Of a stretch of 64,000 bases of DNA, positions 1,916 through 49,634 are shown piece after piece. The translations under genes were made by a program, and so were the position numbers. The DNA comes from Bolinopsis microptera (Eukaryota; Ctenophora; Tentaculata; Lobata; Bolinopsidae): contig NC_087074.1 in assembly GCF_026151205.1 (NCBI RefSeq), positions 17,582,712 to 17,646,711 on the forward strand, written 5' to 3'. The first letter of the stretch is position 1; each line of letters opens with the position of its first letter. Below the pieces are notes generated by a model. That model worked only from the letters and a program-made list of their open reading frames with translations, did no database searches and was not told the DNA's origin.

Positions 1916-2937
1916 CTGATATCAGAATCGAAATGATGATGGTACTACACGAGATGCTCATGGAAAAGGTATCAGTTTGCTTTTCTCCTCCCACGAGCAG
2001 TACAAAGTGTGGGTTCAACTTAAATCTGATAGAAGATATCGTATGCAGAACCCAAGCCCGGCTATGTCTGTACATAATAACGAAAGAAACCGGTAAGTTT
2101 TTAATCATGTAAATGTTCGGCCGAACGTTTGCTTTCATTTTAGACTAGTGACGAAAATCAACAATCGTTTGCCAGTTTGGTTAGTAAAATCGACAAAAAA
2201 TAGTCCATTCCCCAAGGCCATGATATTCGAATTCTGCCCGTTGAAATCAGCCACTCTGATTTTTATCATTGAACTTTGCATTGATGACATGTTCATTCTC
2301 TACAGGTTATGCTGCGAGGGCGTTTAGCTCGATAGATGTTGAAAATGCCCACAGCATTATAAATCATTTGGACCGCCGAGGGGTCCAAAACTCCTCAATC
2401 GAAGAGCTTAGTAGACATGTCAGCAACCTACAGAGACTTCAAATTCTCAGGAAAACCTCTCTAGGACGGTAATACATTAACTTGTTTAGTTAATAAATTT
2501 AATAAGTAGATTTTGAGTGATGATTACTCAATACTGATATCGAGGTACCATAAAAAGGGTATATAAACTTATCACTTATGCTTATATGCTTATACTCCTA
2601 TACTATCAATGAATATCAAATCGCCTTCTCTAGTTATCAAACCCAACATAAATTAAATCTCGGCCTACAAGGACTATTCGATATTTACAACATACCGAGT
2701 GAATGTCTCAATCTTTTCAGGAAGCTTTATACTCCGACATCCACAATTTACCACGCCCCTGAGATCGACAAAGGTCTTTCTGATAGATTGACTTCCAGCC
2801 AATTCGATCTATCGAAGCCGAGTGGGAAGAACAAAGAACTGAAACCCATGGTCGCAACGATGCTCCTCGCGGACAAGGGAGAGTTAGGGCCATCGGTGGT
2901 CACAAGACTGCAGAATATTTATTTTTTTAAGCGTTGA
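1916..2937 (+). CDS. Unrecognised gene, last three exons (partial at 5' end)
   Basis: Three exons join in a compatible phase: 1916-2092 (donor GTAAGT), 2306-2468 (acceptor TCTACAG, donor GTAATA) and 2721-2937 (acceptor CTTTTCAG, stop TGA). The joined protein includes EDIVCRTQARLCLYIITKET, then YAARAFSSIDVENAHSIINH, then KLYTPTSTIYHAPEIDKGLS and ends in FFKR. Exons two and three have even amino-acid composition and no stops across 380 bases, which supports real coding. Upstream exons were not found. They may lie left of the microsatellite or beyond the window. I do not recognise the family. The exon at 1916 is the least certain, because it rests only on good splice sites and phase agreement. 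Confidence 0.55.
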
Positions 2938-4427
2938 GGTTGTCACGAAAGCGTACTGTAACGGGACTGTATCAGATTTGAGTGATTTGATTTTGTGATT
3001 CGCAGTTCACGTGATTTTATTGTGATCTTAGACTGTAAAAACTATAAAGGTTCAAGTTGAACTATCGTCGCCATGATTATGTATTTTGGAACTGTTCACG
3101 TTGAAATTGCTTCGTTAATCAGCAGTCTTCCTTGGTTACCTTCTACTGTGTAATGCAGCTACGATCAACGATACTTAGCTAGTACATTCATATAAGTAAC
3201 TGCACTGAGAAGAGTAAAAAATTTGAGCTTTGACAATAACATTTCCTTGTTTTTAGATACGGTTACTATTCTAGTGAGGGGTTCATAGCTGACCATTAAT
3301 GTCTTACTCACAATAATTTGTGCTCTGATATTGGCCGTACTGACTGCTGTTGAAAAAGCCACGCCATCAGATGCGCGTCACGAGAGTCCACCCCAGTAGA
3401 CTCCACTACGTACAAAATTTGAAATTTTCCCAAAAACTTCTGACTAAGCTAGTTTGTTTTCAATAACTTTTGCAATATTAACAGTAGACCCTTCAAATTT
3501 TCACCAAATGTTTCCCTAGACACTAGTTCATCGTAACTGTGTCATAAAATTTTAATTTAGGGACCCAATTTTGTGCAAGACTCCGGTATCTGACGACCGG
3601 TCGCGGACGTGGTTATTGTAATGTCAACTTCTGTTGCACACTGAGCGAGCTATATTTTGAGAACAAAGATAAACTTTACACCAGGTGAAAGCTGAGACGT
3701 TTCTCTTTAAGATGATCACCTCACATTCTGTGTATCTGTGACATTGAGATAGTAACGATTCAAAACGTCAAGTTGAACAGGCTACAAAATACGCGCTGAA
3801 TAAAAGTCCACCCCAGGAGTCCACCCCACGCGCGTAGGGTGATTATGTAGCCCAATAAATTTTGAGCATATATGCTATAGATTCGTTATAGCGTTTAGTA
3901 ATTTGGTTTTTCGTCTAGAAAAGGTGGGTCCTAAAAACGACCCTATCGTCCCTAATGGGTTAATATCAATATCAATATCAGACTAAACTATCGAATAAAT
4001 AAATTATCAAATATTAATTATTTATTCGTTCTGATAAAAATGAAAAAATGTACAACTATTTAAAAAAATAATTTGAGTAACGTTTTAATTACGTTTAACT
4101 AGTCCATACCCTAGCTAGGCTCCATAATGTAAAACATTTGTAACTGTAACTCCTAAATGAAAATTGTAACTCCTAAATGAAAAGTTGTAATATACCCGGT
4201 CCAAATTTGGGGCCTTATGTGCAAGTACAACCCAAGAGTACAACCCAATAAGTAATATTTGATGAATCACACTATTTCCATGACGAACCGGCCAAACACA
4301 AGTATAAGCTAATCGACTTTACAGAGCCATGTGTCTACGTTAGCACAAGTACATGTAGTTAACAATATATCCTGAGAGATAACAAAGTTAAGGTAACAGT
4401 ATATAAGCCAAAGGTCCTATAATATAA
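2938..4427. other. Non-coding spacer, no gene seen
   Basis: AT-rich sequence without long open frames. It holds two GTCCACCCCAG-type motifs around 3388-3400 and 3804-3830, short AATATC repeats near 3964, and a duplicated GTAACTCCTAAATGAAAA block at 4144-4184. It may be the 3' flank of the preceding gene followed by degraded repeats. Confidence 0.5.
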
Positions 4428-8661: not shown

Positions 8662-8744
8662 GGGCCGGCATAGTGCCGGGGCGGGTATGATCCGCCAACC
8701 TCCGAGTTACATGCCTGGTGCTCTACCAATTGAGCTACCGGCCC
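8662..8744 (-). tRNA. tRNA-like sequence, unit 1 (possible Thr, TGT loop)
   Basis: On the minus strand the sequence reads GCCGGTA then GCTCAATTGGTAGAGC, a clean D-arm and A box (TAGCTCAATTGG). It continues with a stem-loop CCAGG-CATGTAA-CTCGG and a T-stem GGCGG/CCGCC. The expected T-loop TTCGAAT is ATCATAC, position 33 is A instead of T, and the acceptor 3' strand is displaced by about 7 bases. It is therefore best read as a tRNA-derived pol III promoter head of a SINE, not a working tRNA. Confidence 0.4.
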
Positions 8745-9148
8745 TATTCAGCTCAGGAATTTCTTGCACGCCTATCAGTAAGCAATCGTGTTGTTATCTC
8801 ATATCTGCTGCTATTAGTACACTGCATTATATGCAGCTGGGATACTCACTGCCATATTTGTGAGTGTGCATACTGTGTGTAATGTTTTTAATTTTAAGAG
8901 ATTTGGTTGGGGAGGCGGGTTATCGTTGTGAAGTACTGTACTACTCACGAAGTACTGTACACGATGTTTTCAACCCACGAGTCAGAGAGCAAGCTCAACT
9001 GACGGCTCCCAGATGGCGTATGCACATGTAGGTGAATCGGACTGATCAAGTATAGTTGGTTGGGCTGTGATTGTATCGACCATGAGTACCAAGCAAGCAG
9101 ATATTTGAATTGACTAGATTTCCACTGGTAAGCGATTCGGAAAATCAT

Positions 9149-9231
9149 GGGCCGGCATAGTGCCGGGGCGGGTATGATCCGCCAACCTCCGAGTTACATG
9201 CCTGGTGCTCTACCAATTGAGCTACCGGCCC
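9149..9231 (-). tRNA. tRNA-like sequence, unit 2
   Basis: Same sequence as the tRNA-like segment 487 bases upstream, including intact A box and degenerate T-loop. Confidence 0.4.
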
Positions 9232-9635
9232 TATTCAGCTCAGGAATTTCTTGCACGCCTATCAGTAAGCAATCGTGTTGTTATCTCATATCTGCTGCTA
9301 TTAGTACACTGCATTATATGCAGCTGGGATACTCACTGCCATATTTGTGAGTGTGCATACTGTGTGTAATGTTTTTAATTTTAAGAGATTTGGTTGGGGA
9401 GGCGGGTTATCGTTGTGAAGTACTGTACTACTCACGAAGTACTGTACACGATGTTTTCAACCCACGAGTCAGAGAGCAAGCTCAACTGACGGCTCCCAGA
9501 TGGCGTATGCACATGTAGGTGAATCGGACTGATCAAGTATAGTTGGTTGGGCTGTGATTGTATCGACCATGAGTACCAAGCAAGCAGATATTTGAATTGA
9601 CTAGATTTCCACTGGTAAGCGATTCGGAAAATCAT

Positions 9636-9718
9636 GGGCCGGCATAGTGCCGGGGCGGGTATGATCCGCCAACCTCCGAGTTACATGCCTGGTGCTCTAC
9701 CAATTGAGCTACCGGCCC
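9636..9718 (-). tRNA. tRNA-like sequence, unit 3
   Basis: Third identical tRNA-like copy. It lies about 35 bases from the truncated end of the trimer. Confidence 0.4.
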
Positions 9719-10834: not shown

Positions 10835-13800
10835 TTAAAACTTCCCAGTGGAATAAAGATTTATAAAACGCTTCTTTGCCACATAAGGATGGAACCAAAG
10901 ATAATTGTTATGTTTCTCTTTATTACTGACATAACTGGCTCCCTCAATTCTTACTAAAACTTCATTAGAAACATTCCAAAAAAAGCAATCATTTGTAATA
11001 CTTTTAGAAATCATATCTATCTTATATCCTTCTAATTTAATTTTAAAACCTAAAACTGTCACAGAGTTCTTGACGTCCGGAGGGAGTTTGTTCCAATATG
11101 GAATAACTCGCTCCGGGAGAAAAGACTTCTGGATATTCTTGACCTTTGTCACACTTTTACTACATCTATTGGATGAAACCAGATTAAGACCTGATCTGCT
11201 TGGTCTGAACAAGTCTGAACCATAATCAGTCATAGCATTAATAACCTTAAAAGCTTCAATAAGGTCCCCACGTATTCGCCGCTCTGCCAGCGTTGTCAAA
11301 TTGAGGATTTCCAGTCTACGGCTGTAAGGAAGAGTACCCACCTCATCAATCAGACGGGTAAACCACCTCTGGACGCTCTCCAGCTCCAAAACAGTCCCCC
11401 AACTTCCATGAGCCGCAGGTGGATTCCACAATTGGACACAATACTCAAGATGAGGTCTTATTAAAGCTTTATATATAGCAATCATAACAACCTTTTCTCT
11501 AATAACTAAATTCCTTACAATCCAACAAATCATACAATTTGCCTTAGCGATACATGCTTTGATCTGTTCGTTTCAAAGCAGGGAGCTATGGGTAATAACC
11601 CCCAAATCTTTTTCCTGTGCAGATACTTCAAGTTCTATACCATTTACCTTATAATTTAAATTAGGATTGTTGTTAAAATTAATGTGCACTACTTTGCACT
11701 TGGCAGGATTAAATTGTAAAAGCCAAATACTTTCCCAAACTTCTAATTCTTCGATATCTTCAGCAACACTACCGTGGTTAGCTGCATTACCAATTAATTT
11801 AAGATCATCAGCAAATAACTTTATCTTATTTTTTACAAGGTCAGGCAAATCATTAATATACAGAATGAATAGGAGAAGGCCTAGAACTGACCCCTGAGGA
11901 ACACCAGATAAAACATGTTTAACCTCGGACCATTGTCCTTCTACAGAAACCCTCATAGTCCTGTCTGTCAGAAAATCTTTAATAACATTCAACACCTTTC
12001 CTTTGACACCAAAGCCTTCCAATTTAGACAGAAGTCTAAAGTGGGGGACTGTGTCGAATGCCTTACTAAAATCAAAGTATAGAAGATCAACCGGGGCACC
12101 TTCATCTAAAATGTCAAGAATGTCATCAAATGTCTCTAAAAGATTAGATAAACACGATTTACCCTTAACAAATCCATGCTGATGCTTCGAAATTCGATGT
12201 TCTAGAAAATTTAATACATGTGCTCTCACCAACTTTTCATACACTTTGCACAAAATACACGTTAATGAAACTGGTCTATAATTTAAGGGGTCCGATTTAA
12301 TACCCTTTTTAAACAATGCTACAACAGATGCAGATTTCCACACTGCAGGTAAAGATCCTGTATCTGAACACTTTTGAAATAATTTAGTCAATGCTTCAAC
12401 AAAATTATTGTCATAAGCTAGCGATTTCAACAACTTCGGATGAACACCATCCGGACCAGAACTCTTAAAAATGTTAAGCTTTAAAAGTTGCTTTTTTATA
12501 TCAGAACTGCTGACTTCCATATCATCAATATCATCAATACTCTCATTGTCAGGTCTTAAATTCTCAGTTTTAGGGAGAGGGCCAGGTGGTTCACGCACAA
12601 AAACAGAGCTAAAGGCACTTGCGAGTACCTCAGCTGACTCAGTTGAACTATCTGTGCGTGTACCATCTCCTCTATCTAAAGAAACCACACTTGATTTAAT
12701 TTGACGTTTATTTCGTAAATAAGAGTAAAAAGACTTACAATTCTGCTTTAGATTAGATGTAATTTTCTTTTCATAGTTAACTTTAGCTTTAATTTCTGCT
12801 ACTTCATAAGTATGTTGTTTGCTACTTGCATAACTAAAATTAACATCAGATGGATTAATATCAAACTCAGCCCATGCTTTATCTTTATTCTTTCTCATTC
12901 GTTTAAGTGCAGATGTACTCCATGGCAACTTGACAGGTCTGTTGTCGAGATAAACCGAAGCAGTCGGAACAGCTGCAGCAACAGTCTCCAGTTTACCATG
13001 TAATTCAGCCCACATATCTTGAACATCATTTGTAGAACTATAATCCCAGTCGATATTTTTCAAACTAAAATTTAATAACTCTTCAGAGGAAATCTTACCC
13101 CATATAGGTTTGATAATCTTCTCTTTTAAACATTTGCTAGTATCCGGCGAAACAACTAGTTCGACAAGTATCCCAACATGATCACTCTTACCAAGCGGAG
13201 AAACGATCTTACAACCGTTGACAAGAGCATCATTTGTATACAGGACCTGATCAAGAAGACTCTCCTGGAGAGTATCCTTCACAAGCCGTCTTCTAGTTGT
13301 CTCGTTGGTGAAATACCAAGTTAAACCACTGTCATTGAAAACATCCATGAATTTCTGTTGAGTAACTAAAAACTGGTTCTTGCTAACAATATTACTATTT
13401 ATGCTACCAGTTTCCCATAAAACATTTGGTAAATTAAAATCTCCTAAAAGGAGTGTTTCAAAATCATTCCTTTCACTACAGATGCTCTTGATACAAGATA
13501 TTAACGCATTATTCTGTTCTAAATTCAATGAAGTGGATCTATAAATACAACAAATACTAATCAGTCCACCTGATGTGTTGATATTAACAGCTAAAGAATC
13601 CGGTGCCTTTAAAAAAGAGTTCACTAGTGAAGCATTACAACAGTTTTTAACATAAATTATAGAGCCTCCTCCACCACTTATACTGCCAGTGGAATTGTCA
13701 ATTCTAAAATCTCTATCTTTTCTAAACATACTAAATCCTTCAATATAAATTTCGGCATCTAATATATCACTACTAAAATGAGTTTCTGTTACACAAATTA

Positions 13801-14065
13801 CCTCAATAGATTTATACATTGATAAAATACATTTTAGTTCATCAATTTTATTAAATAGGCCGTTAGCATTGGTATAAAAAATATTTAACGGCTGGGCACT
13901 GCGGCCTCCGCTTTGTCCTCTGTCTTCTCTGGCTCTCTTTTCTTTGCTTCCTCCTTCGTCTTCTCTGTCTCTCTTTTCTTCGCTTCCTCCTGCCTCTTCT
14001 TCCTCTCCTTTCTGGCTAAAAAACGAATATCTCTGTCTGCCTTGCAGAGGTCCAAGTTGATCCAA
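10835..14065 (-). pseudogene. LINE ORF2: EEP endonuclease plus reverse transcriptase, one internal stop
   Basis: The frame is open from 14065 to a TGA at 11573-11575, then reopens in the same frame to 10835. The N-terminal apurinic-type endonuclease shows T-N-A-N-G-L, V-T-E-T-H-F, L-L-G-D-F-N-L-P and S-D-H-V-G. The RT shows F-D-F-S-K-A-F-D-T-V, S-G-V-P-Q-G-S-V-L-G and the catalytic L-F-A-D-D. After the stop come the thumb and the C-terminal region ending PYWNKLPPDVKNSV and beyond. About 1,077 codons in total, normal for CR1/L2. The single nonsense codon falls between the RT palm and the C-terminal domain, so the copy is probably inactive unless the stop is a sequencing error. Confidence 0.85.
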
Positions 14066-14862
14066 TAAGTTGACTCTTTCCAGCCCTTACCATGGTCAGC
14101 GTAGAAATTTACTGACTCTTCATCTCGTGTCTGGATGATGAGCGGGCGACGGTGATCTGGCTTGTCAGCATCAAGCTTGCCAGAGCGATGGCAACTTATC
14201 ATGTCGTCCTTCTTAATCTTTAGGGTCTCCCTGCAGAACTTGGAGTCGTCCTCCTGGCGTTGCTTAGAGGTAGTCTTTTTGCTCTCTGGAACCTTGAGCA
14301 CACACAGATTGAGTTTTCGTTTGTTTCGCTCAAATGTATCAGTGTGCATCTTCATTTGCACTTCCGAAATAACAGTTTCAGAAGCTTGTTCACGACTCAT
14401 GTCATCGAGAACCTTCTTCTGGGTTTGTGCTGTTACCTCAGAATAGAGACGAACAGCTTTATCAACTGTTTTCTCTGCGCTTCCTTTAATAGCTTCCTTA
14501 ATCGAGTTAGTCAGGGCCGGGGTCAAATGTTGGAGTTCCTCTTTAATAATAGCCCTGACAGCCCCGTTTTCCTTAGTGTCAGCTGAGGTATGAGGCGCCA
14601 CAAAACAGTATGGGCACTTCCAGTTTGTTAAATTCAGTAACATCTCGTTTTTAAGTCCAGATAAACCAACACAACTCAGGTGCCAAAATAATTGGCAAGC
14701 TTCACATTCAACTGATAGTTCTTCTGACATGTAAACATCACATTGGCAGTATTTTTCCTCTGGCACTGGGACATTATCAGAAGATGAATCCTTAGGGGGA
14801 CTCGTCTTGACTCCACGTTTTTTTCGTATCGACACCCTCTCGGGTACATTGCTACTTGCCAT
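13885..14862 (-). CDS. LINE ORF1p with PHD finger and coiled-coil
   Basis: About 325 residues from the ATG at 14862. Residues near 38-90 form a PHD zinc finger (C-x-C ... C-E-A-C-x-x-F-W-H-x-x-C ... C-P-Y-C). A helical segment follows, then a basic region with a C-terminal domain around FYADHGKGWKEST, and a highly charged Lys/Glu tail (EEAKKRETEKTKEEAKKR). PHD-bearing ORF1 proteins are known from CR1-clade and related LINEs, where they bind RNA and may contact chromatin. The 3' end overlaps ORF2 in another frame, which suggests coupled or reinitiated translation. Confidence 0.8.
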   Translation of the reverse strand: MASSNVPERVSIRKKRGVKTSPPKDSSSDNVPVPEEKYCQCDVYMSEELSVECEACQLFWHLSCVGLSGLKNEMLLNLTNWKCPYCFVAPHTSADTKENGAVRAIIKEELQHLTPALTNSIKEAIKGSAEKTVDKAVRLYSEVTAQTQKKVLDDMSREQASETVISEVQMKMHTDTFERNKRKLNLCVLKVPESKKTTSKQRQEDDSKFCRETLKIKKDDMISCHRSGKLDADKPDHRRPLIIQTRDEESVNFYADHGKGWKESTYWINLDLCKADRDIRFLARKERKKRQEEAKKRETEKTKEEAKKREPEKTEDKAEAAVPSR

Positions 14863-14912
14863 CCCTGAACTCAAATTATTTGTTATATAGTAGTGTTGAA
14901 AGTATTAAAACT

Positions 14913-33819: not shown

Positions 33820-36800
33820 ATGAACACCAAACAGCAGATAGCAGCTGGAGCAACCCTAACACTCGGAACAATATTCTTCTTCTACATCTACCAAAAATTC
33901 AGCTCCAACAAGTCCGACAAAACCAGCAGCTCAGCAACTAAACGGAGCGCTGCTCGAACTCTCCTCTCCAAGTACAACCCCAGACCCACTGCCCAGGACA
34001 TCCAGACAGACAATGAGTTCCAGGGGAGGGTAGTGAAGAGTAAAGTTAGTGAAGGTGGGATTGTGTATCATGATATTAGATACCCTAAACCAGACGAGCA
34101 GGAGGAGCACGCTCCGGAGGTAGCTTCTGGAGTTAGCGACCAATCAGGACAAGAACTAGCCTGTTGTTCCACAGAAACCCAGCCTGCTCAACCAGCTGAC
34201 TCTAGAGATAATGAGCCTGAAACGGAGATATCTGAACCTCAGTCAGTGTCAGTTGTTGAGACTGAGCTCATACCTGACACTACACCTGATATTCCTGTAG
34301 TGGCTGCATCTTCTGTTAGTGAGGTGGAGAATACCCCACATATCCCGCATACCCCACAAACCCAACAGAAATATAATCAGAATGGAGCAGATAAGATTAA
34401 TGGTGACTCTACACCTAACACTGAAGCAGAACCAAGCTCAGATGCCACAAACTCCGTGCCATCCACCTCAAATGATACCCTATCAGACACTATCGTGAGG
34501 AATGGCGTGGTTGGAGGTCTGGTCACTACTGAGGAATTCGTTAGGAATGTTGTCAGGTTCGTTACTATTTACAAACCTTTTTTACAAAAACTCTTTCACT
34601 GAGCTTATTCCTAGTCTATTTTGTCATGAATTCTTTTTATGATGGTGTATAATTTATATTGGCTGTCGGCCAATATAAATTGGCTGATGTTGCTTTTAAA
34701 ACAATAATTTGCTTTCCACTATTCATCTTGATACAAATTAACAGAGCTAAAGATAAAGTAGAGATGGAAAGAAGAAGAGACAAAACAGAAACAATCGAGC
34801 AGATATTCAACATTCCTTCTAAAGCTGTGGGTAAGAACATGATGCTTCTAGTTTTCTTTCCCTCATCTCATTCTGTGTTGCCTTTACAGGGCTATATTTA
34901 AACTACATTAAACTATATTTCCTCTTTCTCAAGTACCAACCATGTTCATCGTGCTCTATCACACAGTTCGGTTATCTTAAATTATTCCCTGGCACTTTAT
35001 GGCAATTGTCAATAAATAGTTTTCATCATTCAGTTGTCAGTAACTAACCCCAAAAACCTGTACAGGAAAGATAATAGGAAAAGAGGGTCGGAGTATAAAA
35101 GCTATACAGCGTGATAGTGGTGCTAAACTTAAGTTCCCTGGAAACAGGGACAGATCAGCGACATTCCAGAAATTGTTTGTGTTCGGTACACTTAGACAGG
35201 TAAGCTATTTCGTGCATGTTCATTAACTGTTTCGTGCATGTTATAGTGAGATTGTATAATCTACTTAATCTTAATAATCGTGAAAAAACCGTGGGTGCGT
35301 GTGTAATGTACAAATAACTTAATCGAGAAAACAGTAAGAGTAAGGGTACTGGTTTTTTCGGTATAGTGCCGACAAAACTCTGAGTAAAACGAAACAGGTT
35401 TTCACAAATTGGCCGGCGGTAAGTGGTTTAATTGATGGTAATGATATTATAAAATAAATAAATAAATAAATAAATAAATAAAGTCAATTTTTACAGCACA
35501 GCAATATATATCTAAATATCAGATCCTCTGTAATCATAATGTATAAAAAAAGGAGCTTTTCTCTGTGCTGAAGGATGAATCAAGGCAGATCATGGTTCTG
35601 TTAGCAGGCCACCCTAGTTATGGACAATACATATATATAAAATAATTAAATTATAATTTTAAAATTGTGTCAAGATTGAACTAAAACATAACTCAGGGTA
35701 AAATAGACGTATTCCCTTCGTCAAATTAACTATTTACAATACTAAACTTAAACGAACTCCGGGTAAAATAAACGTAATCCCTTTGTCAAACTTGCTATTT
35801 ACAATAAGTTAATAAATTAATACGGTTGAAAATTATTTCATATTCAATAACAATGTAGCATCAATATAATTGATACAAATGAGGAGCATACAGTGAGAAT
35901 TGCACATAACAGGAGGACTGGAGGTATGGAGCAATAATGATTGACAGTGCACCTTTCCACTGATGTTCCTAATTTCCTGTAATAGCTTAATAGGCATGGA
36001 AATACTTTGATTGCAGGGGATAGATTGGATTCACTTATGTACTGAGATAACTTAACCGAAATAACATAACTGCCTAGATACATTGGCTAGTGTTGGGTGG
36101 GATCATGAATTTATCGTAAGAGTTATCCCCTTGGTAATTCTCATCAGTTAGCAACATATTCATAAGAGTTTCTTTGTATAACTTAGAAAATTTCTTAACG
36201 TCGTCACACTCTCTAAGGGACTTTGGTAATATGTTCCAGGCCTTAGTTCCTAGATAGTTAAACTCCTTGTGAGATCTTGATTTAGGAGTATAAAGATTGC
36301 AGTTTTCTGCCTCACGTGATCCACCAGAAATATACGAGAATTTCCCGATAAAATGCTTTGGACATGTTTCATTGATTATACGGTACATATATGAGCTAAG
36401 ATGAACCTGTCGTCTCAAATGGAGAGGAAGCCATCCCATATTTTTGTATACATTAACCGACCTCTCTCTGATGTTTACATCTAGGGCTATTTTAGCAACC
36501 TTTTTGTACATGATATCTAACTCTCCTAGTCGTTTTTTATATGTTCTTGACCAGATGGTGTCTAAGTAGTCAAAATGTGGCAACATAAGTGCATTAGCAA
36601 ACATCTTCCTGAACTTAAGAGGGAGAAGTTTTTTTGATCTATACATAGCACCAATTCTTTTGGATATCTTTTTCTTAATGTTATCAATATGTTCATTAAA
36701 TGTCAATCTGCTGTCAACTATAAGTCCAAGGTACTTATGGGATTTAGTTTCACAGATTACCAAAGTAAGGTCATCACAAATTTCAACAAGGATGGCATCA

Positions 36801-39800
36801 AGGTTAGGCTTAGAGTCAAGGATCATTAGTTTTGTTTTTTCATTATTCAGGGATAGTTTATTAGCCTGAAGCCATCTGATAACTAATTTCAACTCTTGTT
36901 TGATGTTACCATAGTTTCCTCTAGATATATTGTCAAAATATAATGCACCGTCATCAGCAAATAGATAAGGTTTAGAAAATAGGCATGCATTAGGCAGGTC
37001 ATTGATAAAAATGCTGAATAGAATTGGTCCTAATATACTTCCTTGAGGCACTCCAGAGTTCAATGAATGTAAACTGCTTATCCTACTCCCAACTCTAGTT
37101 TGCTGTAATCTATCTGTGAGGAAGCTCCTAAACCAGCTCAATGCAGTATCTTTTATTCCATAATGCTTCAGCTTTTGAATGAGAATATCATGGTTAACAG
37201 TATCAAATGCCTTTCTGATGTCCAGGAAGATAATTGCAGGATGCTTGGCACTGTTCTTAGCAGTAAATATACGATCAAACAGATCTAACATGAGATAAGT
37301 TGTAGAGTGATCTTTACGGAAACCATATTGATGCTCTGAAAGTATTCCCTTTTCATCAAGATATTGAGTCAGTTGGGAGTTCACACAAAATTCGATGCAC
37401 TTTCCAAGAATCGGTAAAATTGAGATTGGTCGATAATTACTAGGATTCTCAGTATCACCATCCTTATGGATTGGGGTGACTTTTGCAACCTTGCAGCTGT
37501 TTGGCATGATGCCACTGGATAAACTCAAATTTACAAGATGTGTTAATGGAGCAATAAATGCAGGTAAAATTTGTCTAAACACTCTCAATGGTATATGATC
37601 ATTAGTGGATTTGCTACAAGGGATACTTGCCACATAGTCTAAGATATTGGACTCAGTTATTTCAGTAAAGCTATTCAAGCTGGTCTCGTTGTCAATCTGC
37701 TCATTTTGTAGATAAGATAGAAATTCATTTTCATTTTCCAGCTGCACTTCTGCTTGGATCTTTGGACCTATTTCAGCAAAATATTTATTGGTGGTTTCAG
37801 CATCAAGATTGTTATTGATATTGTTAGCTTTAACAGGCAGATTTGATGCTGTCTTTATCGTTTTCCATACACCCTTTAGATCATTCATGGCACACTTGGC
37901 TTTCAGTTCTGTTGCTAAGTTAGTCTTCCTATTAATTCTAGACAAATAGGTTGAATAGTTTCTCTGCCGTTTATATGCCATCCATAATGAGTCACATTTA
38001 TTACAGTGTATAAGACCATTTGGATGTATACGTCTGTTCTTGTTGTGTGTTAAAAATTTACGGTAAAGTTTCCCTTTCAATTTCTTACTTTCTAAAAATT
38101 CTGGAGATGGCTTATGGATGTAATCACTATGGCACTTAATTTGTTTAATTGGACAGAAGTGATCATAGTAGTGATCAATATGTTCGTTTAAACCATCAAC
38201 TGCATCATTCAGACTAGTTGAATCTATTATTGGTCTATAATCACAGGTTTCCAAAAATTCTTTAAGAGCAGTAACATTCATTTTGCTGTGATCTCTTATT
38301 AGTAACTTCTTGAATTTTGAGGCCTTATGCACATTGAAATCGACAATGAACTTTACGACCTGATGATCTCCTATACAATCATCAAGGACTTTGCAGTCAA
38401 GAAACTTGGAGTAAGTGTTTGTTATGACAACATCGATTGTGGTCTTTGTGATTCTGTTTCCTAGTTTAGCAATGCGGGTAATATCCTGAACTACCTGTAC
38501 CATTCCAAACATTTTCATTGTAATGTCTAATTTCTTATAGTTCATACTGCTGATGTTGTTTTGGTCTACATTTACATCACCCAGCCAAATAACATTCTTA
38601 CTTCCTATACTCATCATGCAGTCTGTCATATAATCTAAAAATTTGTCAAGAGGACTAAACAACTCAGATCTGTAGAAACAGCAGATGAAAATATTGCAAT
38701 CTGTAAGATGGATCCAAATAGCCTCGATTTGGTCATATTGCAAAACTAAGTTTAGTTGAATCATTTTAAACTTTATGTGCTCACTGATGAGAATGCCACA
38801 TCCCCCATGACCATTGTCGTTAGGACGGTCTTTGCGGATAAAAGTAAAATTCTTGGGTAGGTTTAGACTGGCTGAGTCAATATCCGACTTAAGATTTGTT
38901 TCATTCAGGCATAAAACATCTAATTTCTCTTTCCAGATTAGATCTTGGATTTCAAGACATTTTGGCATACCTGTTAGTCCTCCCTGCATGTTGCAATGTC
39001 CCACTGCAAGCTTTTTGGCATGGTATGAAACTGTGATTTTACTAATGCACGGGTTAATGCAAGAACTGCTGTGAGAGCATGAAAATTTTTCCAATTTATG
39101 CTGCTATAAACTTGTCAGAATAAGATAAATTGCAGAACTGGCAAATTTGTATGAGATAATAACAAAACTTTCTAAAACTTCAATAAACATGAGGAACAAT
39201 GTGTAATTATCCCTTATCTAGAATCTAGATGAAATAAATGTTAACAATCTTTCTGAAAATTCAAACTTGCTTATGGGCCCAATACTTCAGAAATTTAGCA
39301 AGTCGAATAACACCGCTTGTATTGAGGTGACAGTTATCAGATATTTTTGCAGATGGTCTGGCAAAATAAAATTCTTTCCTGAATCCACTTCTATTATAGT
39401 TAAATAAATTATGGGTGCTAATGTAATTAAAACAAGAATCTTTGCTACACATATCCTTAATAACCTTATTCAGCTCTGCCACAACATCATTGCGGCCTTT
39501 TGTACTCCTGGGAAGAATATTGAGAACATTAATTGTTGCATTCGGATACACTGACTTGAGATAATTTAAGAGATTACTAATGTCACCTGCTGCATCCTTC
39601 AGTGACTTTGAGCCAAAATAGACTGTGTTCACATTATTAGTTCCTGTCATAATATAAATAATAGATGGGGATGGAACGGAGTGTAGGTCAGTTTTTAGTT
39701 TATTTAACATTACTTTGGCATCAGCCCCAGGATAAAACAGTTTACTAGCACTAACAGTGGACGATGATAACTTGTCCGCATCAAGAAACCTGAACATAGA

Positions 39801-42800
39801 GCTGCTTATGAATAGGACAGACTTTTGTGAAGCTTTGGCTGGCTGTTTGCAAACTGAGAGTGCAGGTGAAGAAGAGTCTGTCAGTTTGTGTCCTGAATGA
39901 GGGATGGGTGGGGGCGGTGAACGCAGACCAAACTCAGTTGACTGAGTGATCCTAGGGGGCTTCATCAGTCTTAGGGTGATGCTGATCCGGGGTTCATCAC
40001 ACATTTCGTCTGGCAGTATCTCATGTTGAAAGTCAGCCTGAGACAATTTGGACATGATGAAGACATCTCCATGCTGAAGCTGCACAGAGCCCACAACTTC
40101 ATTGCTGCCGTTTGATCTAATTTGCAGTGTTCTCGTCGCACCAAGTGAAATGGTTACAATATCAGAGTGTTCTACAATACATGATTCAGAATCGCTATGA
40201 GCTGGCATGAACTCTGCTCCAGTTTCATATAGATTGACGAGAATACTATTGTGTCTGAAATTGGGTAATATCACATTAATGTAGGAGCTGAGTTTAGCAA
40301 GGTAGGAATCATTGTGTACACTTTTTGGGTCATGTGTTGCACCTGAATACTCATAGGGAAAGTCACCAAAATAAACCGATTTCCTGTTTTTAAAACCGTG
40401 ACTGAACTCAAGTTCTTCCATTAATAGATCAAGTGAAAATTTTGAGAATGGACCATCATCTAGTAGGGTAACTGGTTTCACTGGTGATGGGGAACAAGTT
40501 ACAGATATATTCATTGGCCCCGGTGTTATAGGATCGTAGACAGGGGCAGGGACCAAGTTTGGATATTTGTCTCTGGGCTTAGGGGTGTTGATCCGTGATT
40601 CACCAGTAGCAGTAGATACAGGGAGATCAGACACATCATCCTCGTCTGCCATAACCTCGTTAACAACAATCTCACTGATAACAATCTCGTTTCCAACAAC
40701 CTCCTGTGGAACAACCTTGTCCACGACATCGTTGTCAACAAACAAACTGTCCGATACAACATCTTCCACAACAATGTCATCTACATCAAACGCTTCTACT
40801 TGATTGATAACAACGTGTGACTGAGGGGTAATGGTTATGATCTCACATTCAATCTCCTCTGATAAGTTCGGCAGCAAATTTTCACACTTAAAACTCTGTT
40901 CTTGTATTTGAGTTTGATCTGATATGAGACTATCATTGTACTGAGCAATGAGATCACTAGTTCTGATAATTTCATTCAATAAAGACAACTTTTTTTCTAA
41001 AAAGTCAATCTTGATGTCTTTTGACAGACAATTGTTACAGTTCTCTGATTTTTCAGACTGGAATGAAAAGTTCAAATGTTCTAAAGGGCGCTCACAAAAG
41101 TGGAGACTAATGTCTGAGCTCTGATTATTTGACATAGTTATATTATCAAGAGTTCAATGTTCAGAAGCACAATAAACACTGTAAACGCAATACCTTCAGT
41201 CCAGATAGTAGTTTTGATGAGAATAGTTTTGATGAGAAGGAGGAGGATGAGTAATCTTCAAGTACACTCACAGCAGTCCTTTGCACGTCAACACTTACGC
41301 TCGTCTATCATATCTCATACCTCAAATTATTTGTTATATAGTAGTGTTGAAAGTATTAAAACTTTTTTAGATACATACCAATTGTAATCAACAAATTGAA
41401 AAATACTTTGCTGAGATTGCAAGTATTCAATCTCCCCCAACTTGTGCAGGTTGAAGAAGCTGTTGCACGTCTTGTAAGCCTTATGCCTGCTGATTCTATT
41501 TGTGCCGATCTTATCAACTGGACACCTCAACTCGCTCTATCAGGTGCAGATAATTATAATAGTAATTAAAAATTATACCTTGCTATCGTTTATATGTTGT
41601 ATTGTATTACCGACTGTAGCTATCTACTGTAAACCATTAAATCTAAAGCTTCCTAACAACTTGTGTTTACAGGAGATTTGAAGTCGGTTGATTTGATAGA
41701 GAATACAGTCTGTATAGGACGAGTTACTCACGTCACATCCCCTGACTGTATTTGGGTTCAAATATGTCGAGGTGTAACCGGCACTGACTACCTCACTCAA
41801 CTTGGTACTCTTACTGACAATATTACTGACACTCTTGGCAGGTAACCGGAAAGTTTCGTTGGGTGAAATGGCGGTTTGTTGATTCGTTTAGATTAGGTGT
41901 GCAGCTTATTTTAGCATAAAGGGTCTTCTGAGAACAAAATATGGAAGGCGCATTTGATGTTTTGCTGCGTGTGAACGTTCTGGGTGCGCGCGTACGTACA
42001 ATTATGAACGCGCGCGTGTGGCAAACGCTTTTTTGGGTTAAATGATCGGTACCCTGAATACCACCCGATTCCAGGTAGTTTTGGAAACCTGATTCAGGTG
42101 GTGGACACTGTCCACCATTGCCTCGATAAGTAAAATAATCGTCGAACTTCGAAGGACAACTTAGTTTTACAAGCCAATGCATTCAACTGAGTGTGAATCA
42201 ATTTCAAAGCATACTTTACGTGTGTACCGATCGACTCGATTATTCCGGTAGTTTCGCGAATAAGTGACAATCGACAGTAAAACTTTCCACTCCGCGTGAA
42301 ATCGCGGTAAGCACCCTAGTTGAAGATTTTCGCGACCATCAAGCACACTTTTCACTGTGAGGAAATTTACAATTCTTAAGACCCTTTCAATCAAATATTT
42401 GAATTGTGTACCTCACTGTTAATCCCGCGTGTTACAGGAAGATCTACGATATGAAAAAAGCCCTGATACCAGTTAAGGATATCAAAGAAGGAACATCCTG
42501 CGCTGTTTTGTTGGAAAGCAGGGGTTACCGGGGCAATGTTATCTGTCCGGGCACGCCAGATAACGATGTTCATCAGGTCAGACTAGTGGACTTTGGGACT
42601 CCGCATTCCTTCACAGAACTCTTCAGACTTGAGTTAGTGTTTCTTAATTGTGTTAATCATGATTGATATGATATCCTAGTCCGATTTCGTGCTTTTAGTT
42701 TCTTTAATTTTGTTCACTTCTATAGGGATCGTGATGAAGATCGTAAATCGACTAAATCTCAAGTTTTTCAGTGCGTACTACTTTGCTATGCCAGCATTGG

Positions 42801-44140: not shown

Positions 44141-44682
44141 TATATATTCTATAGCCGTACTTCTACGCAGCAGGTGTTGTTATAAATATATCTATCACCA
44201 TTTTACTAACATCACAACATCAACTTTAACACAACTTTCCGCGAAAACCGTGAGAGATATACCTTTGTAACGTTTTTGGCTGGTCCGAATGTTTTTATTG
44301 CATTTAGACCAGTATGGAGAAATACAAAATTGGCCAAGGCCATAAGAACTTTAGGTCCCGAAATTTGAATCCCCGGAAGTGGTGTAAAAATCACAGAATA
44401 AATACATATTGGGTATAGGTTTTAATAGGTATCTATGGGGTTGGCCACCACTTTTGGGTTAGACGGGTTTCTGCTAACTTGTAATTATAATACACAGCAA
44501 GAATTATTCAGCGAATTGTTTGATCACGCTAAATTTTGTTTGCTCCAAAGCATGTATAGTGAGCATTTCCGAAATCCTGTCAAATAAAAAAGGATTGAAT
44601 TGTGGTAACGGCCAACCAAACATTTTAAATGCATGGCTATGAGAATTCCATTGCTTTTAATGACACCAGGAAATTCTCTAGC

Positions 44683-46594
44683 ATGTCCAGTCCCCATCCC
44701 AATAGTGCTATACTCCGCCGTCTTCGAGAGAAACAGCAAACTCAGCAAACCAGGATCCACGTTGAGCCAACTGAGGTGTTCGAAATACCCGAGGATAAGT
44801 GTGGTCTGGTGATTGGTAAACGAGGATGTAAAATCCAGAAAATTCGGTCCGAAGCAGGAGTTGGTGTTAATCTTTGGGATAGGAATTCAGCAGTTGATGG
44901 TATGATGAAGGTTTATCTGTGGGGAGACAAAAAAGGGTGTGACAAAGCCAAGAAGATAATTATGAATCTAATTTCTGAGTCAACTGAGGTGTTCGAAATA
45001 CCAGAGGATATGAGTGGCATAGTGATTGGCAAAGGAGGATCTAAAGTCAAACAGATTAGATCGGAAACAGGAGTAAGAGTTAGTCTTGGGTCTCGGGACT
45101 CAGCACTTAATAGTATGATCAAGGTTACCCTGATGGGAAACAAAGAGGGCTGTGACGAAGCAAAAACGATCATTATGAACCTAATTTCTGTGGTTATTAA
45201 GGTGTTCGAAATACATAAGGTGATGAGTGGCGTATTGATTGGCAAAGGAGGATCGAAAGTCAAACAGATTCAGTCGGAAACAGGAGTAACAGTTAGTGTT
45301 GGGTCTAGGGACTCAGCAGTTGGTGGTATGATCAAGGTTACCCTAATAGGAAACAAGGAGGGCTGTGACAAGGCAAAAAAGGTTATTATGGATATAATTT
45401 CTGAGCCAACTGAGGTGTTCGAAATACATAAGGATATGAGTGGCATAGTGATTGGTAAAGGAGGATCTAAAGTCAAACAGATTCAGTCGGAAAACAGGAG
45501 TAACAATTAGTGTTGGGTCGTGGGACTCAGCATTTGATATTAAGGTTACCCTAATGGGAAACAAAGAGGGCTGTGACGGAGCAAAACAGATTATTATGAA
45601 TCTAATTTCTGAGGTATTTGAGGTGTTCGAAATACATAAGGTTATGAGTGGCGTAGTGATTGGCAAAGGAGGATCTAAAGTCAAACAGATTCAGTCGGAA
45701 ACAGGAGTAACAGTTAATATTGGGTCTTGGGACTCAGCAGTTGATGGTATGATCAAGGTTACCCTGAAGGGAGACAAAGAGGGCCGTGACGAAGCCAAGA
45801 ATATTATCTTGGAATTAATTTCTGAGCAAAGTGAGGTGTTTGAAATACATAATGATATGAGTGGCGTAGTGATTGGCAAAGGAGGATCTAAAGTCAAACA
45901 GATACAGTCGGAAACAGGAGTTAGAGTTTATGTTGGGTCTATTAATTCAGCATTTGATGGTATGACGAAGGTCGTCCTAAGGGGAAACAAAGAAGGATAT
46001 GACGAAGCGAAAAGGATTATCATGGAACTAATTTCTGAGCCAGTTGAGGTGTTCAAAATACCTGAGTATATGATCGGCGTAGTGAAGGGTCAACAAGGAT
46101 CTAAAATCCAGGAAATTCAGTCCGAAACAGGAGTTAGAGTTATTGTTGGGTTTTGGGACCCAGCAATTGATGGTATGATCAAGGTTACACTGATGGGAAA
46201 CAAAGATAGCTGTGAAGAAGCAAAGAAAATTATCTTGGATTTAATATCTGAGCCAACTGAGGTGTTCGAAATTTCAAAGAATATGATTGGTGTAGTGATT
46301 GGTAAAGGAGGATCTAAAGTCAGAGAGATTGAGTCTAAAACAGGAGTTACAGTTAGTGTTGGGTCTAGTAATTCAGCAGTTCTGTTTGATAGTACGGGCA
46401 AGGTTTACCTGTGGGGAGATAAAGAAGAGTGTTCCTTTGCAAAGAATATTATCTTGCGTCTAATTAATAATATACCACATCCATATGATATACCATTAGA
46501 TGAGTGGGATGACGACAATGATGACTACTACGAACTGTCCTGTGATCAGTGGTTACTCAGTGGTTACTGTTTTGATCCCTATGAGGAATATTAA
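44683..46594 (+). pseudogene. Tandem-KH protein gene A (8 KH units, one frameshift)
   Basis: KH domains bind single-stranded RNA/DNA through a G-x-x-G loop. Eight units of ~73 residues follow each other, each opening E-V-F-E-I and carrying V-I-G-K-G-G-S-K-V-K-Q-I-Q-S-E-T-G-V, then M-I-K-V-T-L-x-G-N-K-E-G-C-D-x-A-K. Units 1-3 lie in the frame 44683-45510. An extra A in GGAAAACAGG near 45491 shifts the frame inside unit 4, and the rest (units 4-8) is open to 46594. Unit 7 has a degenerate loop (V-K-G-Q-Q-G). The C-terminus is acidic and Tyr-rich (EWDDDNDDYYELSC). The array resembles vigilin or FUBP-type multi-KH proteins in layout, but the units are far more alike to each other, so recent internal duplication is likely. 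The frameshift may be a real lesion or a base-call error. CTCTAG ends one base before the ATG. Confidence 0.75.
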
Positions 46595-48380: not shown

Positions 48381-48463
48381 CATGCCTTAACCTTTTAACA
48401 TTTTAAATGCATGGCCAGGGAAATTTTATCGTTTTTGTAACACCAGTAAATTATCTCTGCAGC

Positions 48464-49634
48464 ATGTCTAGTCCCGATAGTGCAAGTAAATTTTTAGAGT
48501 CGTTTTTCCGCGGTATTATAGATAAAAAGAAAATTCAGCAAGCCAGGATCGATGTTGAGCCAACGGAGGTATTCGAAATATCCGAGAATAAGTGTGGTCT
48601 TGTGATCGGTAAAGGAGGATCTAAAATACAGGAGATTCGGTCCAACGCAGGAGTTGATGTTAATCTTGGGGATAGGGTCTCAGCAGTTGATGGTATGATG
48701 AAGGTTTATCTGTGGGGAGATAAAGAGGGCTGTGACAAAGCCAAGAAGATTATTATGAATCTAATTTCTGAGCAAAGTGAGGTATTAGAAATACCTGAAG
48801 ATATGAGTGGTGTAGTGATAGGCAAAGGAGGATCTAAAGTCAAAGAGATTAAGTTTAGCACTGGAGTTGATGTTTTTCTTGGGTCTAGGGATTCTGCAGT
48901 TGATGGTATGATCAAAGTTACACTGAGGGGCAAAAAAGAGGGTTGTGACGATGCAAAACAGATTATCTTGGATCTTATTTCTGATGATGAGTTAGAGTGG
49001 GGCAGGCTTGTCCGCCGTGGCTAAAACAGGAGTAAGAGTTAGTGTTGGATCTAGGGACTCAACAGTTGGTGGTCTGATCAAGGTTACCTTGAAGGGACAC
49101 AAAGAGGGCTGTGACGAAGCAAAAAAGATTATTATGAATCTAATTTCTAAGTTAACTGAGGAGTTCGAAATACCCGAGGATATGAGTGGCGTAGTGATAG
49201 GCAAAGGAGGATCTAAAATCAAAGAGATTAAGTCCAATACAGGAGTTGATGTTATTGTTGGGTCTAGGGATTCTGCAGTTGATGGCATGATCAAGGTTAC
49301 CTTAATGGGAAACAAAGAGGGCTGTGACGATGCAAAGAAAATTATTATGGATCTAATTTGTGAGCCAACTGAGGTGTTCGAAATACCCGCGGATAAGAGT
49401 GGCGTAGTGATCGGTAAACAGGGATCTCAAATCCAGGAAATTCGGGAATTAGGAGTTGGAGTGTATGTTGGACCTATGGACTCAGCAGTAGATGGTATGA
49501 TCAAGATTTCTCTGAGAGGAAACAAGGAGAAGTGTGACCACGCAAAGGATTTCATCATGGAGCTGATCTCTGATCTCTGTGAACTAGAGGAGTCGGATGG
49601 GCCGTTCAGTGATGGGGCATGCAGTGATTGGTAA
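48464..49634 (+). pseudogene. Tandem-KH protein gene B (4 full KH units plus a half unit, rearranged)
   Basis: The ATG at 48464 follows CTCTGCAG by one base. Two KH units (V-I-G-K-G-G-S-K-I-Q-E-I and V-I-G-K-G-G-S-K-V-K-E-I) run to a stop at 49022-49024 after a non-KH tail D-D-E-L-E-W-G-R-L-V-R-R-G. Immediately after comes the second half of a KH unit (T-G-V-R-V-S-V-G-S-R-D-S), two more full units and an acidic tail ending SDGACSDW at 49634, in a different frame. The first stop therefore looks like the natural end of one gene copy joined to the middle of another, as expected from unequal crossing-over between KH arrays. Units are close to those in gene A. Whether any part is expressed is unknown. 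Confidence 0.65.

Follow-up and report, generated by a model that had tools for sequence, protein, structure and literature searches.

What would a retrotransposon do with a nucleic-acid demethylase of its own? The question is raised by a LINE (long interspersed nuclear element) of the ctenophore Bolinopsis microptera, which lies on the reverse strand of the 64,000-nucleotide stretch analyzed here (contig NC_087074.1, positions 17,582,712 to 17,646,711; hereafter, the window) and whose first open reading frame (ORF1) had been predicted to join an AlkB-like demethylase to an SGNH esterase. Anatomy, copy number and linkage to ORF2 show that this element belongs to a young multi-copy LINE family inside a wide radiation of LINEs with AlkB-SGNH ORF1s. 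A 186-amino acid AlkB stretch was searched against 264.65 Mb of genome, and the best 150 of 752 first-look candidates were scored. All 150 match AlkB, which rejects a single-copy reading, and they extend to families of 32% identity: 31 stand at 99-100% (counting the window's own copy and one fragment), 31 at 48-56% and 88 at 32-40%, with an internal stop in just one. A search with the SGNH domain gave 151 matches, 150 of them scored at first look, largely at the same loci (weakest rows 27-29%). The spacer and the start of ORF2 follow ORF1 in 28 of the 29 other young copies at 98.3-100% identity (L029 is without). Eleven further ORF1s chosen for long open frames (L052-L055, L059-L064 and L068) were read, making 12 with that of the window, and each has AlkB and SGNH matches; in L063 Pfam finds AlkB via PF03171 alone, below its cut-off. 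ORF2 comes next in the four longer stretches of other families; each has a reverse transcriptase (RVT_1), and L052, L054 and L055 also have an endonuclease above cut-off. The ORF2 frame of L053 is without the endonuclease part, that of L052 looks internally deleted, and L054 and L055 have a different kind of ORF2, whose Cys-rich N-terminus is not recognized by Pfam above cut-off. The window copy itself has the layout of LINEs of the apurinic endonuclease type (ORF1, then ORF2 with endonuclease and reverse transcriptase, on a single strand), and the family is dispersed as such elements are, in scattered copies with a short-repeat 3' tail and unique flanks; L024 and L040 have a common flank and for this reason look like one insertion that was duplicated. 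The predicted LINE context and the recurrence of the AlkB-SGNH-plus-ORF2 architecture thus hold in the host genome, where many families were found. The CR1 assignment made with them found no confirmation: ORF2 shares 27% identity with a CR1-like ORF2 elsewhere in the window, and the CR1/L2 clade is our presumption.

The AlkB domain has the double-stranded beta-helix fold, and its nearest solved relative is ALKBH3, with ALKBH2 in a tie for the fold. A fold of another kind, which would have spoken against the original prediction, was looked for and did not appear. The domain shares with ALKBH3 and ALKBH2 the iron ligands, the 2-oxoglutarate arginines and the HSDxE motif, whose glutamate, retained here as E317, has a role in base recognition. 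Y303, H313, D315, E317, H371, R383 and R389 are identical in 12/12 ORF1s, and the catalytic set claimed for the window (H-x-D...H and RxxxxxR) is therefore complete and invariant. The metal and 2-oxoglutarate residues are also kept in 29/29 young copies wherever these are covered (L029 covers 10 of 13); neutral decay of the H-x-D...H residues, sought as contrary evidence, did not occur.

Selection was assessed by codon comparison of the 12 ORF1s, which represent 11 lineages as L060 and L064 are of one family; 11 pairs were computed. The ratio of nonsynonymous to synonymous substitution rates (dN/dS) of AlkB was 0.153, 0.080, 0.096 and 0.134 (the last within the family) in four of the 11 pairs, dS being saturated in the other seven and above 2 in two of the computable four. 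SGNH gave 0.096 and 0.068 in its two computable pairs, and the N-terminus 0.27-1.10 in seven. At the amino acid level AlkB was better kept than SGNH in seven pairs and SGNH in three, with one tie. By these comparisons, AlkB and SGNH are both constrained. The 29 young copies differ from the window copy (all differences, synonymous/nonsynonymous) by 44/8 in AlkB, 46/18 in SGNH, 18/19 in the linker and 26/47 in the N-terminus; when only distinct changes are counted, the numbers become 14/7, 10/14, 3/5 and 11/26, respectively. The site-corrected ratios of distinct changes are 0.14 for AlkB, 0.39 for SGNH, 0.63 for the linker and 0.64 for the N-terminus, and AlkB differs from the N-terminus in these changes (Fisher p 0.012). 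The loci were chosen by AlkB likeness, a possible bias favouring AlkB; few decayed copies with a scorable AlkB are likely to have been missed, however, because the list of identities falls from 99% to 56% with nothing between. Low dN/dS and the invariant catalytic residues thus show that the AlkB domain is under purifying selection, as had been argued from its uninterrupted frames, and that it is among the best-kept parts of ORF1.

Concerning the esterase, PF13472 scores 23.6 bits on the window ORF1 and 16-28 bits on the 11 others, all below the cut-off of 32.9. S446, N500 and H603 are identical in 12/12; G470 is aligned in six ORF1s and unaligned in six, D600 is found in ten and is H in two, and the window copy has all five block residues (S, G, N, D, H). 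A similar arrangement, two ORFs with a C-terminal SGNH domain in ORF1 and its Ser-Asp-His residues, is described for ZfL2-1 and CR1 type IV ORF1 in the available parts of PMC3905857 and PMC4120745. H191 and S228 of ZfL2-1, which the former presents as specific to transposon esterases, correspond to M496 and L538 of the window ORF1 in pairwise alignments (27% identity). The SGNH-type residues of the predicted partner therefore stand, whereas these two marks of a ZfL2-1-type transposon esterase are missing from the window ORF1.

LINEs with an SGNH ORF1 are already known, as is a long terminal repeat (LTR) element with AlkB. In the sections of these works open to us, Metcalfe and Casane, who surveyed the ORF1 domains of 448 Jockey-superfamily elements, report esterase ORF1s in vertebrate groups only and list no AlkB, and Khazina and Weichenrieder place esterase ORF1s in chordates, cnidarians and sponges; nor does the main text of PMC3905857, as far as accessible, mention AlkB in dealing with the esterase ORF1, whereas the window ORF1 carries it. 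A Ty3/Gypsy element of the orchid Phalaenopsis also captured AlkB, but according to the accessible part of PMC9289625 it is a plant LTR element with an ALKBH5-like AlkB in a separate ORF, whereas ours is an animal LINE of many families with an ALKBH2/3-like AlkB and SGNH in a single ORF1. The plant RNA viruses with AlkB mentioned in that part are likewise mobile RNA agents, but they are RNA viruses and have no retrotransposon ORF1. No description of AlkB in a LINE, or of an AlkB-SGNH ORF1, was found among the papers listed by our searches of the open-access literature; one may exist elsewhere.

Origin and other carriers of the AlkB domain

Eleven LINE AlkBs, the main group, form one clade with support 96/92 in a 21-row tree from which the Helitron and L010 rows were omitted for their long branches. 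When Helitron and one viral row were added (23 rows), the LINE split was weak (75/93). Both trees omitted L009, L011-L013 and the duplicates L003 and L007, and of the host ALKBH genes they held the ALKBH3-like one. A single origin of the main-group AlkBs is thus supported in one of the two trees. L065, the genome's best ALKBH3-like frame (50% to human ALKBH3), is presumably a host gene. A clade joining it to the LINE AlkBs was rejected (p-AU 0.0073), and the LINE AlkBs do not group with it as ALKBH3 orthologues should.

The module is carried by other elements too. L069, a second LINE-like type, has a 777-aa ORF1 with AlkB at 83.6 bits, SGNH motifs without a Pfam score and an endonuclease frame behind; its reverse transcriptase either lies past the stretch read or gave no score. 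The first lid segment of L069 is of full length (15 residues), and its joining the main clade was not rejected (p-AU 0.196). By its length the lid speaks for two or more recruitments of AlkB, a matter that the tree does not decide. A single Helitron frame in L067 (1348-8001; 2218 aa read of 3226) contains SGNH at 43.6 bits, above cut-off, together with AlkB (64.9) and Helitron_like_N (84.2), and AlkB was found in frames of 2225 and 2459 aa at two other loci. L066 has an AlkB frame (1078-1965) and, 0.7 kb downstream, an SGNH-like frame (2677-3459), a pair that is perhaps another element. Scans of viral and prokaryote contigs with the whole ORF1, and of viral contigs with ORF2, found no relative; the AlkB part alone found relatives in both.

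Spliced leaders at LINE 5' ends

The window copy starts with a 42-nt sequence, leader A, which is found again (14911-14870) just seven bases ahead of the ATG of ORF1 in the second LINE of the window, an unrelated CR1-like element (10835-14911, reverse strand) with a PHD-type ORF1 (PHD below cut-off). A 29-mer of leader A occurs 1150 times in the genome and its reversed control 0 times. The element proper starts with GTATGAG in 30 family loci (L022-L051), and the junction is present in 28 of them and absent in L042 and L048. It is preceded by leader A in 13 (cut short in L041 and L043), by a second leader, B, in 10 and by a third, C, in three; L025 has leader B and four extra bases at the junction, and in L029 only 8 nt are visible where the sequence ends. 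When 15 further loci were searched with up to 5 mismatches, leader B was found before ORF1 in L052, L053 and L059 and leader A in L069 (at 136); none was found in L054, L055 and L060-L068, of which several stretches start a few hundred bases before ORF1. A 31-mer of leader B has 478 genome occurrences (control 0), and many of the first 100 places listed are spaced at 434-bp steps on one contig (C1:14490815-14549153). The three units read there (L070) consist of leader B followed by GTAAGA, predicted hairpins and a U-rich site, which makes the array a candidate spliced-leader RNA gene; Rfam gave no match for it. No such array was found for leaders A and C, for which none was systematically sought.

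Ctenophores have spliced leaders. Because different leaders stand at one junction and one of them has an RNA gene-like array, trans-splicing of the LINE RNAs most likely preceded their insertion. Three leaders at one junction and the candidate array also reject the idea that the 43-bp match of the two window LINEs is a chance or recombination patch. Since the leaders end in AG, an inserted leader could act as acceptor for the next trans-splicing. Spliced leaders would be one route by which LINE RNAs gain a defined, capped 5' start. The leader was absent from the viral contigs searched and was not found in open-access papers, which were searched by its letters only. In front of at least two further repeats (L014 and L019; L017 and L021), leader A is present as well.

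Possible roles of the AlkB domain

Reverse transcription is halted by the methylated bases m1A and m3C, both of which are removed with AlkB in laboratory tRNA sequencing. The case is about evenly balanced that the window LINE, as a copy of a young AlkB-SGNH family, uses its AlkB to clear methyl adducts from its own single-stranded template and cDNA. ORF1 protein would bind in cis to the RNA that encodes it, and oxidation by the AlkB domain would strip Watson-Crick-face methyl adducts such as m1A and m3C from the RNA template and the nascent cDNA. Since reverse transcriptase is blocked by adducts of this kind, clearing them would favour full-length integration. A role in assembly or in contact with membranes is probable for the SGNH part, by analogy with what was proposed for ZfL2-1.

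The LINE AlkBs depart from ALKBH3 and ALKBH2 in the first lid segment (between F244 and R251), which is shortened. It has 6-7 residues in 11/11 main-group LINE AlkBs and 6 in Helitron and L066, vs 12-15 in the host ALKBH3-like enzyme and in seven others of prokaryotic or viral origin; viral L009 has an insertion there (61), and the human fragment compared leaves the segment uncovered. With so short a lid, a single-stranded substrate seems likelier than a duplex. Several points weigh against adduct clearance by an ALKBH3-type enzyme with an esterase partner. Because of this difference in lid length, the substrate may differ from that of ALKBH3. The N-x-Y motif, N-L-Y in the window and in L052, keeps its Y in 12/12 ORF1s, but N301 is replaced by T in 10/12. 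The predicted model of the window SGNH domain has a pLDDT of 49.6, too poor for a structure search, and the heptad score of the putative coiled coil before the esterase was equalled by 66 of 500 shuffles.

Helitrons are considered to transpose by way of single-stranded DNA, and since one of them also has AlkB and SGNH, single-strandedness is common to the AlkB carriers. A broader and more tentative proposal is that AlkB and SGNH may form an accessory module moved between transposon classes (at least two LINE types and Helitron) in a spliced-leader animal, safeguarding single-stranded intermediates against methyl lesions or marks, while the LINEs would renew their 5' ends each round by trans-splicing with the terminal AG of the old leader as the next acceptor.

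The alternatives differ in what the enzyme would act on. It might be an m6A eraser that keeps the m6A readers of the host from recognizing the element RNA. Such a role was proposed for the orchid Gypsy AlkB, an RNA-binding protein with m6A demethylase activity in vitro (PMC9289625, accessible part). We think it unlikely here: the orchid enzyme is ALKBH5-like whereas that of the window is nearest to ALKBH3 and ALKBH2, the module is also in a Helitron, and L1 in mammalian cells is helped by m6A and held down by ALKBH5 (PMC7873242, accessible part), for which reason simple m6A erasure is less favoured. Action on chromosomal DNA, clearing a methyl mark to open the insertion site, would agree with the fold tie with ALKBH2, a double-stranded DNA enzyme, and with the module being in both LINEs and Helitron; yet all main-group LINE AlkBs have a shortened lid segment, a part that contributes to duplex binding in ALKBH2, and we judge this reading quite improbable. 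Slightly less probable again is action in trans on a host target (tRNA, mRNA, the spliced-leader cap or a protein) that dampens transposon control. The element RNAs do start with a spliced leader, whose cap is hypermethylated in other animals, but AlkB has no separate frame and sits within the ORF1 protein, which packages the element RNA in other LINEs. A catalytically dead AlkB could supply the RNA-binding scaffold that esterase-type ORF1 proteins are reported to lack as a structural domain (PMC3905857, accessible part); the invariant metal and arginine residues make this very improbable. Recent capture of a host ALKBH fragment, passively carried, has a precedent in retroelements (PMC9289625, accessible part) and the tree held the ALKBH3-like gene alone among host ALKBH genes, but the 150 matches across diverged families, the low dN/dS and the rejected host clade already contradict it, as concerns recent capture and passive carriage; an older capture, from some other host ALKBH gene, may have taken place.

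If the enzyme does clear adducts, a dioxygenase conserved across LINE radiations would imply that methylated bases, whether damaged or marked by the host, genuinely hinder retrotransposition, and it becomes testable whether methyl groups on RNA hold back reverse transcription in nature. The LINE AlkBs would also offer natural enzymes to remove methyls that block reverse transcriptases.

Anatomy and surroundings of the window copy

Table. Features of the window LINE (window positions; residues are those of ORF1 unless stated)
Feature	Position	Strand	Basis or remark
Whole LINE element, ~5.9 kb	35452..41362	(-)	ends by comparison with other copies
Spliced leader A, 42 nt, element 5' end	41321..41362	(-)	exact match to leader of second window LINE
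Post-leader 5' UTR, starts GTATGAG	41136..41320	(-)	junction in 28/30 family loci
ORF1, 624 aa + stop	39261..41135	(-)	
AlkB / 2OG-Fe(II) dioxygenase domain, residues 228-392	39960..40454	(-)	
Iron ligands H313-S-D315	40191..40199	(-)	invariant, 12/12 ORF1s
Distal iron ligand H371	40023..40025	(-)	
2-oxoglutarate pattern R383-xxxxx-R389	39969..39989	(-)	
SGNH hydrolase-like domain, residues 437-624 (S446, G470, N500, D600, H603)	39264..39827	(-)	PF13472 below cut-off; 1fxw and 4c1b alignments; motif columns
ORF2 (endonuclease + reverse transcriptase), 1009-aa frame between stops	36074..39103	(-)	first ATG is codon 39
ORF2 apurinic-type endonuclease domain	38354..38950	(-)	PF03372 E 2e-4, PF14529 E 5e-4, both below cut-off
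ORF2 reverse transcriptase domain	36719..37471	(-)	PF00078 127.8 bits; L1 ORF2p and a similar chain matched at E 2.5e-14 and below 1e-12
(TTTA)n 3' tail	35452..35482	(-)	TRF: 7.8 copies of 4-nt unit; match to three other copies stops there

The leader marks the 5' end of the element, upstream of which the flank is unrelated in other copies. The 3' end is placed to within a few bases by the tail, which is followed by unrelated flanks in L056-L058. Flush with the 5' end, no target-site duplication in the form of an exact repeat of at least 7 nt was found. The 10-bp repeat AACTAGGGTG (42321, 35619) was rejected as one because the element ends lie elsewhere and, by our estimate, chance alone would give about two matches of this kind. 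Rfam gave no match at threshold for the window LINE, the five listed all being below it. An ATG before the endonuclease is absent from ORF2 in two families (window 36074-39103; L052 2745-5063), for which a non-AUG start, reinitiation or splicing are candidates.

Two forward-strand exons flank the element, a KH exon at 35044-35223 (40.1 bits) and a Tudor-like exon at 42403-42663 (13.8 bits, below cut-off), and the LINE looks to lie antisense in an intron of an apparent TDRKH-like host gene. TDRKH works in the piRNA pathway. Long frames rich in KH repeats (44629-46594 and 48407-49634, forward strand) stand beside this Tudor-like gene. On the reverse strand, the window also holds three tRNA genes of equal score at 487-bp steps (8672-9718).

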